A program made the translations under genes and the position numbers. A stretch of 64,000 bases of DNA from Glacieibacterium arshaanense (GTDB lineage Bacteria; Pseudomonadota; Alphaproteobacteria; Sphingomonadales; Sphingomonadaceae). Positions within the stretch are counted from its first letter, which is position 1, and every line of letters starts with the position of its first letter. Of this stretch, positions 47,005-49,010 are shown piece after piece. Location of the stretch: the NCBI RefSeq assembly GCF_004681125.1, contig NZ_SIHO01000001.1:310001-374000 (forward strand), written 5' to 3'. The notes under the pieces were generated by a model. That model saw only the letters and a list, made by a program, of their open reading frames with translations, ran no database searches and was not told the DNA's origin.

Positions 47005-47240
47005 GGGAAACTCCACTCTGGTGTGATCGAGTCGGGTTATGCGCCGGTTTTGGCAGCAAGGTCGATGATTTAGATCAAAAAGGCCAAGGCGGCAGCGCGC
47101 TGGAGGAAATTCGCGCAGCAAATTTCCGAAGTCCGCTGACTCGCCGCAGCGTCCGGCCGGCGGGCGGCAAAGCCGACCCGTCCGACGACGCGGCTCCGCA
47201 GCGATGGAGGAAGCAGTTTGACAGCAGTGGACGTGATTCC
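47005..47240. repeat. Intergenic spacer with family 2 repeat copy B
   Basis: Between 47103 and 47205 lies a second copy of the hairpin-rich element also found at 9768-9890: GGAAATT/AATTTCC (stem 1), then GACTCGCCGCAGC, GTCCGGCCGGCGGGCGGC and ACCCGTCCGACGACGCGGCT. I see no gene in the spacer. It separates the minus-strand DUF465 pair from the plus-strand DGQHR unit. Confidence 0.5.
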
Positions 47241-47286
47241 AGATCTCGAAATCTGATCTGTTAAAATAGATCTGAAAAAAAGATCT
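47241..47286 (+). promoter_or_regulatory. Tandem GATCT repeat upstream of the DGQHR gene
   Basis: Four half-sites AGATCT (47241), TGATCT (47254), AGATCT (47268) and AGATCT (47281) are spaced 13, 14 and 13 bp, each followed by an AT-rich run such as GAAAAAA. Three of the four are the palindrome AGATCT. The last overlaps the first base of the TTGATA -35 box, so this is a likely operator or iteron-like array. Confidence 0.7.
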
Positions 47287-47314
47287 TGATACGTGGATCG
47301 GATTTGCTTATATC
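47286..47314 (+). promoter_or_regulatory. Predicted sigma-70 promoter of the DGQHR gene
   Basis: TTGATA (47286-47291), a 17-bp spacer and TATATC (47309-47314) form a near-consensus promoter. The inferred start point near 47321 gives a leader of about 40 nt before the ATG. Confidence 0.65.
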
Positions 47315-47362
47315 GGATTCACAGCGGCCGGCATTGTGCCAGCCTGATTGAAGGGAAATGCG

Positions 47363-48541
47363 ATGGGTGAATTTGATGATTTCGAAGACCTGAAGAGCCT
47401 TGAAGGCGCTGGTACGCACGTCGCGGCATTCGCGATTCCGATTGTCGTGGGTCCGAAGCTCTCGTCTGGTGTCCAGCTAATTTCGGGGTTTATCCCGGTC
47501 AAAGCACTTTTGGGACGCTTCACCGTGCCATCTTACAACCCGGTCAGCCGCATTGGCTACCAGCGGATGCCGGGCAAGGCACGCGTCAACCAGTTGGCCG
47601 CCGCCTTGCGGGCCGGTAGCGTAGATCTGCCGAACTCGGTGATCCTTAACATCCGCTCGCAGGATGCCGCTTCGATGGTGTCTGGCGGTCACCTTCATCT
47701 CCCGGGCATTAGCGGAAATCCGACTGACGACCAGATCATTCACGTGGTTGACGGCCAGCATCGCGTCTTGGCGCTATCGAAGGCCGTAAGTGATGGCTGG
47801 GAATACGGCGAGGAGTATCTCTTGCCGTTTGTTTGCATGCTAGGTGGTAACGAACTGGAAGAGATGAAGCAGTTCTATCTGGTAAATTCGAACGCCAAGC
47901 CCGTGCGCACCGATCTCGCGTTGGCGCTCATGAAGCGTATGAGCGTGGCTGATCCGTCGGTGATGGATGAATTGGAAGGAAAAGGGCGGGCATGGCAGAT
48001 TAACGGTCAGACTCTAGTTGAGCGGCTTGCGAATGAGTCGGGCATCTGGCGTTTGCGCATCCGACTGCCTGGTATGGACAAGGGGCAGACCACGATGCCG
48101 TCCGCGTCGATGGTCAAGTCGCTTCAGGGTGTACTCAAGTCGCCGTTCTTCCAGCGCCTGAATCAGGACCAACAGGTGCGCATTCTCGAGGCATATTGGG
48201 AAGGTGTCCGGCAGGTTCTGCCTGCGGCATTTTCCAACGCCGAAGACTATACGATCATGAAGGGTGTAGGTGTGCGCGTGTTGCATAACCTCTTACCTGA
48301 CGTGATTGAAATCATTCGCGATTCTGGGAAGTCTACTGCTGATCCCAACAACTACGAGGAAGTCCTTGCGCAGCCACTGCTCGAAGTGAGCGGCTACGAC
48401 TCAGAAGGTGACGAAGTCACTGGTGACAGGTTCTGGCTCAGCGGTGCAGAAGGTGGCGCGGGTAGCTTCAGCAGCGAGTCCGGCATCAACAGGCTAACTG
48501 CGTCCCTGCAGAAAGCGTTGCCGAACCTCGAAATCGGCTAA
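47363..48541 (+). CDS. Lone DGQHR-domain protein (DndB-like)
   Basis: A 392-aa protein. The DGQHR motif (HVVDGQHRVLAL) and the ensuing FYLVNSNAKPVRTDLA segment are characteristic of the DGQHR family, which includes DndB of phosphorothioation clusters and ParB-like nucleases. The ATG at 47363 has AGGGA 8 nt upstream. No dnd, BREX or other defence gene is adjacent. It is visibly less GC-biased than neighbours, with its own promoter, GATCT array and terminator. Function of orphan members is unknown; transcriptional regulation or DNA binding is plausible. Confidence 0.82.
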   Translation: MGEFDDFEDLKSLEGAGTHVAAFAIPIVVGPKLSSGVQLISGFIPVKALLGRFTVPSYNPVSRIGYQRMPGKARVNQLAAALRAGSVDLPNSVILNIRSQDAASMVSGGHLHLPGISGNPTDDQIIHVVDGQHRVLALSKAVSDGWEYGEEYLLPFVCMLGGNELEEMKQFYLVNSNAKPVRTDLALALMKRMSVADPSVMDELEGKGRAWQINGQTLVERLANESGIWRLRIRLPGMDKGQTTMPSASMVKSLQGVLKSPFFQRLNQDQQVRILEAYWEGVRQVLPAAFSNAEDYTIMKGVGVRVLHNLLPDVIEIIRDSGKSTADPNNYEEVLAQPLLEVSGYDSEGDEVTGDRFWLSGAEGGAGSFSSESGINRLTASLQKALPNLEIG

Positions 48542-48565: not shown

Positions 48566-48597
48566 CGGCCCGCCTTTATTGGCGGGCCGAACCTTTT
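48566..48597 (+). terminator. Rho-independent terminator of the DGQHR gene
   Basis: The stem CGGCCCGCC/GGCGGGCCG with a TTTATT loop is followed by AACCTTTTT. It starts 24 nt after the DGQHR stop. Confidence 0.9.
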
Positions 48598-49010
48598 TGA
48601 GTCGTTGGCTAAATACTGTTTGCCTTAGAATTGCGGTCACCAAAATTACCGTGACAATGCATGCAGCATCGGGCGAGTTTCGCGACTTGAGAAACCGGCG
48701 AACGAGTGGGCGCGGATTTGTAACGCTGCACGCAGGCGTTGCTGCGGGTTTGATGATGGCCTTGGGCGGGCGGCACCGTTGGTAACGGCAGCGGCCAGCG
48801 CCGCTTCCCCCTCACCCCGCCGCGCTGGGGCGCGAGTCGCCCTCTCCCTCGAGGGGAGAGGGGCAAGAGGGCGGCGCGCTTCAATCGGGTGCAGGCGTCA
48901 CGCCTGCCCGCCGGAGGCTCTTGGCTTCGGTCTTGGTACGTGGCGAAGTGCCCACCCCCGCTCGCCTATGGCGAGTCGCCCCTCCCTTGGCAGGGAGGGG
49001 GTTGATGGGG
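48598..49010. other. Repeat-rich intergenic spacer
   Basis: This spacer has no supported gene. It contains a palindrome CCTCTCCCTCGAGGGGAGAGG (48841-48861), a half copy of the family 1 element, and CCCCTCCCTTGGCAGGGAGGGG (48981-49002). Such sequences are typical intergenic hairpins and may terminate uvrA. Confidence 0.6.
48887..48918. repeat. Dispersed nested-hairpin element, family 1, half copy 4
   Basis: A single 32-nt arm with inner hairpin CAGGCG-TCA-CGCCTG. It is preceded by CTTCAATC, the reverse complement of the loop start GATTGAAG. It therefore matches a left arm plus loop in the opposite orientation; the second arm is missing. Confidence 0.85.

Follow-up and report, generated by a model that had tools for sequence, protein, structure and literature searches.

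In the stretch of Glacieibacterium arshaanense DNA analysed here (64,000 nucleotides, hereafter the window), a gene for a DGQHR-domain protein is preceded by an array of palindromic RGRYCY hexamers that runs over its own promoter. The unit of array and gene is real, conserved and new to the literature searched, in which no title or abstract described a stand-alone DGQHR unit. We consider it likely that it is a horizontally acquired, self-contained single-gene unit in which the DGQHR protein represses its own synthesis through its own RGRYCY array.

The DGQHR gene and its array in the window

The gene lies among small opposite-strand genes, one of them a TraR/DksA-like reading frame, and an opposite-strand uvrA, and it was the only DGQHR gene recovered by a genome-wide search (Table 1). 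Its GC content is 56.5%, compared with 64.9% for the window, and its GC3 is 66%, compared with 88% for uvrA. The initial annotation had described a gene of lower GC, alone between repeats, with a near-consensus promoter and a terminator of its own. The GC difference, dispersed repeats on both flanks and a hairpin followed by a T run were all found, and the term near-consensus suits mainly the −35 box and less the −10 box. The flanking repeats belong to two dispersed intergenic kinds, which are genus-specific and occur in tens of copies in the window's own genome (G000) and in G001 and G002. Elsewhere, the two kinds are also seen to adjoin directly with nothing in between. We discarded an insertion of the cassette into a single dispersed repeat, as the repeats to its left and right are of two kinds that are often adjacent.

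Upstream of the gene, GATC cores begin at 47242, 47255, 47269, 47282 and 47296, with a spacing of 13/14/13/14 bp. The four GATCT half-sites at 13/14/13 bp noted in the initial annotation were thus correctly spaced, but the repeating unit is a palindromic hexamer (RGRYCY family-wide) and the fifth core had been missed. When the 162-bp stretch between the genes was put through 20,000 dinucleotide shuffles, neither a chain of five nor a chain of four appeared, and a chain of three appeared in 10, which bears out the array noted earlier at the promoter. The five-core chain is unique within the window. Further, a scan of the whole genome, which had been proposed as a check, found no RGATCY array other than that at the DGQHR gene; one more GATC triplet stands at C4:197464, without the R/Y pattern on its flanks.

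Table 1. Positions, in window numbering, of the DGQHR gene, its putative operator sites and the surrounding elements
Feature	Position	Strand	Remarks
Dispersed repeat, left of cassette	47134..47200	n/a	outside the unit; repeat comparison
Operator site 1, AGATCT	47241..47246	n/a	putative
Operator site 2, TGATCT	47254..47259	n/a	putative; 13 bp after site 1
Operator site 3, AGATCT	47268..47273	n/a	putative; 14 bp after site 2; −18 from first −35 base
Operator site 4, AGATCT	47281..47286	n/a	putative; overlaps first −35 base; register −5
−35 box, TTGATA	47286..47291	+	1 mismatch to consensus
Degenerate operator site 5, GGATCG	47295..47300	n/a	putative; in −35/−10 spacer, +9
−10 box, TATATC	47309..47314	+	2 mismatches to consensus; 17-bp spacer from −35
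DGQHR-domain protein gene, 392 aa	47363..48541	+	ATG 47363 most likely start; in-frame TTG 47348 alternative
Intrinsic terminator, CGGCCCGCC / GGCGGGCCG stem, then T run	48566..48598	+	direct reading of sequence
Dispersed repeat, right of cassette	48795..48874	n/a	outside the unit; repeat comparison

Conservation and spread of array and gene

A five-member alignment was used to scan GTDB genomes and yielded 26 close homologues (L013–L038), which share 32–46% identity with the window protein and come from Proteobacteria, Chloroflexi, Actinomycetes, Acidobacteria and Myxococcales. The initial annotation had read the locus as an autoregulated stand-alone DGQHR unit and had taken homologues lacking the repeats as an argument against operator function. 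An RGRYCY array, pair or degenerate array at 12–14 bp precedes 20 of the 26, and no iterated hexamer was found upstream of any of the 49 DGQHR loci that are more distant, both of which support that reading. The six homologues with no recognisable array are L017, L028 and L035–L038, and three of them are deep branches. At least three RGRYCY hexamers at 12–14 bp occur in 16 of the 27 family upstream regions of 350 bp, against a mean of 0.007 and a maximum of 1 in shuffles, and the distances between hexamers over the 27 regions peak at 13, 14, 26–28 and 39–40.

The arrays differ from member to member. L015 and L016 carry up to six sites each, L020 and L029 only two, and L034 five degenerate ones as counted by eye; the AGATCT sites of L026 are spaced 12 bp apart. 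The sites read GGATCC in L021, GGGTCC/GGACCC in L022 and AGACCT/GGACCT in L023. Sites start at about −31, −18, −5 and +8 from the first −35 base, wholly or in part, in the window, L013, L019, L022, L024, L027 and L032, to which loci we limit the statement, automatic promoter picking being implausible in L015, L016, L018, L020, L025, L026 and L033. The −5 register of site 4 is common to L013, L024, L027 and L032, and the degenerate fifth site of the window, at +9, is matched in several homologues by a full site at +8. In L013, the array precedes a small gene, which we take to be SinR-like, that itself lies before the DGQHR gene; there, the array therefore controls an operon. A later homologue outside the motif definition, L152, has GGATCT and AGATCT 13 bp apart, which is a weak held-out test given its closeness to L029 and L031.

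Several further observations concern individual copies. Two TGACCA words stand 13 bp apart directly before the start codon (4411) of the array-less L028 and are perhaps a diverged operator. The related copies L029, L031 and L152 have long leaders of about 170–240 nt and apparently occupy the same site downstream of an nrdB-looking gene, which suggests vertical retention after one insertion. Hairpins between promoter and start codon are strong in L014, L024, L026, L031 and L033 (z −3 to −6), possibly as an attenuation layer; leader hairpins were dropped as a family feature, being present in some members only, and a search for a leader RNA family gave no Rfam match. The copy of Chelativorans multitrophicus (L045:5857–6825) is broken over several frames and is apparently a defective gene.

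Across 35 other genomes of the host family, two of them from its genus, we found no close homologue and one remote match, which makes a regulator resident in the host improbable. The family profile matched 1 of 398 genomes in a phylum sample and 2 of 399 in an order sample, the host's own genome included in both. Because of this near-absence from family, phylum and order samples, the DGQHR unit was most likely acquired horizontally. In the viral collection, a scan with the single protein found no relative and one with the alignment only two remote relatives; tblastn against plasmids and phages returned only remote DGQHR proteins (22–27% identity). As to the contigs of individual copies, the traJ-II RNA at L016:1461–1562 makes a conjugative or mobilisable plasmid the probable location of L016, and L018 and L020 look like plasmid copies too.

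Three-site RGATCY arrays, sought in 20 homologue genomes, were present in 12, and in 11 of these all matches were at the DGQHR locus. One stray three-site match was seen in G452, which itself has an AGACCT-type operator, and we estimate that about one such stray is to be expected by chance. Beside the family, no other gene recurs at more than three loci. Since the array is single, travels with the gene and has no recurrent neighbour, its dedicated regulator should be the DGQHR protein, unless the regulator is encoded elsewhere and has spread together with it. The array is also a simple sequence tag by which more family members can be found.

The protein, its relatives and its operator variants

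The window protein scores 82.4 bits against the DGQHR-domain model TIGR03187, above the cut-off of 58.85, and its VDGQHR at residues 129–134 is invariant in 27 members. DGQHR is a nucleotide-binding signature of the ParB/Srx fold (PMC4619093). The AlphaFold2 model (pLDDT 90.4, pTM 0.83) has a ParB/Srx-type N-terminal domain, a helical C-terminal part, a GSFSSESG motif and a last helix at residues 372–385, with E372 as its N-cap. A search of the PDB found no sequence relative. The best Foldseek match there was the ParB-like domain of PadC, with a probability of 0.99 but a weak E of 0.064, and viral ParB/Spo0J, DndB-like and GmrSD N-terminal models matched the predicted structure at E < 0.001. 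On the strength of the model, the window protein is best read as a DGQHR protein of the ParB/Srx fold.

NTPases of the ParB/Spo0J/KorB type bind short palindromes. The window protein shares a predicted ParB-like domain with them but is only remotely related in sequence, and its gene differs in having no ParA partner and an array placed over a promoter. WYL-type defence regulators (BrxR/CapW) accompany defence systems and bind repeats at promoters; they have another fold and usually stand in the defence operon, whereas the window gene is apparently self-regulating. DpdB, the ParB-like ATPase of 7-deazaguanine DNA modification, provides the closest named model (NF041060, 56.1 bits over residues 65–322; 61.8 bits with PADLOC), but the curated cut-off, 300 bits, lies far above these scores, and no dpdA was matched in the window's genome. 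What is described for DpdB is an ATPase function in base insertion (PMC12839542), not self-repression. The N-terminal domains of GmrS/DUF262, SspE and BrxU have the ParB/Srx fold with a DGQQR motif and NTPase activity (PMC4619093), and the structural matches include viral GmrSD N-terminal models; unlike these proteins, the window protein had no HNH (DUF1524) or other nuclease domain that we could find.

The likeness to DndB (TIGR03233; Salmonella enterica) lies in the DGQHR motif and, by the predicted fold, the ParB/Srx superfamily, yet the window protein reaches 12.9 bits where the cut-off is 328, and its gene stands alone. As the initial annotation had noted for dnd genes, none accompanies it: dndC was matched neither in the window's genome nor in 20 homologue genomes (21 in total). 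Salmonella DndB autoregulates through two TACG-N10-CGTA boxes with half-sites 14 bp apart (PMC4507180), close to the 13–14 bp pitch of the window array, whereas the window operator is an iterated RGRYCY palindrome rather than TACG/CGTA. The repressor role of DndB is disputed (PMC10853773), and its modulation by ATP is reported in a paper cited there. By this comparison, the window unit appears to resemble DndB autoregulation, yet it would not be DndB by any criterion that we tested.

The operators vary together with the protein. GRYC-type operators (GGGTCC/GGACCC/AGACCT) occur in L022, L023 and L032, whose proteins form one weakly supported clade (SH-aLRT 83, drawn open) and whose hosts belong to three phyla; judged from the sequences, the operator variants track the protein and not the host phylum. 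Among 366 well-filled alignment columns, column 463 (E372 in the window protein) is the sole one that parts members with an array, which have S (15), N (3), E (2) or H (1) there, from members without one, which have G (4) or A (2). The column was picked post hoc; when labels were assigned at random, a column of this kind turned up in 8 of 3000 trials. Column 463 falls in the conserved motif G-A-A-G-S-Y-S-S-x-A-G-R-R, where the last helix begins. Members with N or H at this column have GGATCC-only or GRYC sites, and those with E (the window protein and L034) include TGATCT sites. Residue and array states change jointly five times on the best tree, with one of these five independent contrasts on well-supported branches. 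We regard the E372 position, from these alignments, as a lead to a recognition element, not as proof of one.

Proposed self-repression, alternatives and a possible defence role

We infer that the DGQHR protein binds the array and acts as a repressor, that it is gated by nucleotide and that a burst of it would be put to use in defence. The protein would occupy the upstream RGRYCY hexamers side by side at the 13–14 bp pitch, in the simplest mode by DndB-like binding on the self-complementary core, with each GATC or GRYC serving as the right half of one site and the left half of the next, so that the operator could be extended at will. Bound protein would cover the −35 box and the −35/−10 spacer and switch off its own promoter. 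The position of the sites over −35 box and spacer implies repression; activation is formally conceivable in its place. If DndB is a guide, DNA binding is probably modulated by the nucleotide bound at the DGQHR site, and derepression of the DGQHR gene would follow when the nucleotide state changes or the protein is removed.

The description of the gene as stand-alone holds for the window and most homologues, since most family members are monocistronic and without a partner, but not for some that have operon partners or defence neighbours. Among the homologue loci, the defence neighbours that we picked by hand are a type III Res-like helicase 37 bp downstream in L021 and, directly or closely downstream, a CD-NTase in L023, a CAP12-type TIR protein in L032 and Mrr with a ThsB-like TIR in the array-less L036; an AbiJ-like domain and a methyltransferase-like gene lie on the plasmid-like contig of L020, and type IIG and type II restriction-modification genes in the neighbourhoods of L028 and L035. 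From gene content, the DGQHR unit may plausibly serve in defence; it is conceivable as well that it is purely regulatory or has some other nucleotide-linked role. Small HTH-like reading frames overlap or directly follow the DGQHR gene (L015:7119–7388, L020:4662–4937, L045:6797–7042) and possibly encode a partner protein; that of L020 had no Pfam match, nor had the 96-aa, presumably SinR-like frames linked to the gene at L013:3239–3529 and L036:8047–8337.

The defence genes downstream in L021, L023, L032 and L036 raise the question of whether the DGQHR protein primarily regulates neighbouring defence genes, like the WYL-type regulators of BREX and CBASS, with stand-alone copies as remnants. We consider this unlikely: the array is found only before the DGQHR gene, or before the upstream operon gene in L013, and the stand-alone copies that make up most of the family keep the conserved motifs. 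It is less probable still that the array is read by another regulator, be it a host nucleoid or stress factor or the product of another gene, and that the DGQHR protein is the regulated product only. Binding by the DGQHR protein itself is deduced, and small HTH-like (L015, L020) or SinR-like (L013, L036) genes exist at a few loci, but none co-occurs family-wide, the array tracks the DGQHR gene across phyla in single copy per genome, and both operator variants and absence of the array follow the protein.

A replication iteron, a centromere-like (parS) site or an integration site would suit the ParB-like fold and the plasmid-like contigs of L016 (with its traJ-II RNA), L018 and L020. The fixed register to the −35 box, the location of most copies among ordinary chromosomal genes, with one array per genome, and the missing ParA partner at most loci make such a function very improbable. 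We give even less credit to Dam-like GATC methylation as the switch: most cores are GATC, but L022 and L023 have GGGTCC, GGACCC or AGACCT at the same place, and with such GATC-less sites methylation cannot be a general signal. That the repeats are functionless, arising by chance or local tandem duplication, is next to impossible. Unrelated viral contigs do contain perfect tandem repeats of 13 bp that include this hexamer; the repeats there are mostly ordinary near-perfect repeats with no DGQHR gene nearby. In the family, by contrast, hexamers are kept while spacers diverge, so the array is not a set of young tandem repeats, and both its conservation beyond shuffles across homologues and its register across phyla oppose this origin.

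Self-repression of a mobile DGQHR gene through its own array is thus the reading that we retain. A more far-reaching and rather doubtful proposal is that of a hitherto undescribed, mobile single-gene unit for immunity or nucleotide sensing, in which one ParB-fold DGQHR NTPase would be sensor, self-repressor and effector, lined up on its own RGRYCY array, whose bases it would read with the N-terminus of its last helix and from which a phage-induced nucleotide change would free it. DGQHR proteins (DndB, DpdB and DUF262 relatives) are widespread in defence systems and the way they contact DNA is unsettled. In a minimal, partner-free member whose operator varies in nature and for which there is a candidate specificity residue, DNA recognition and nucleotide gating would be testable in one protein.
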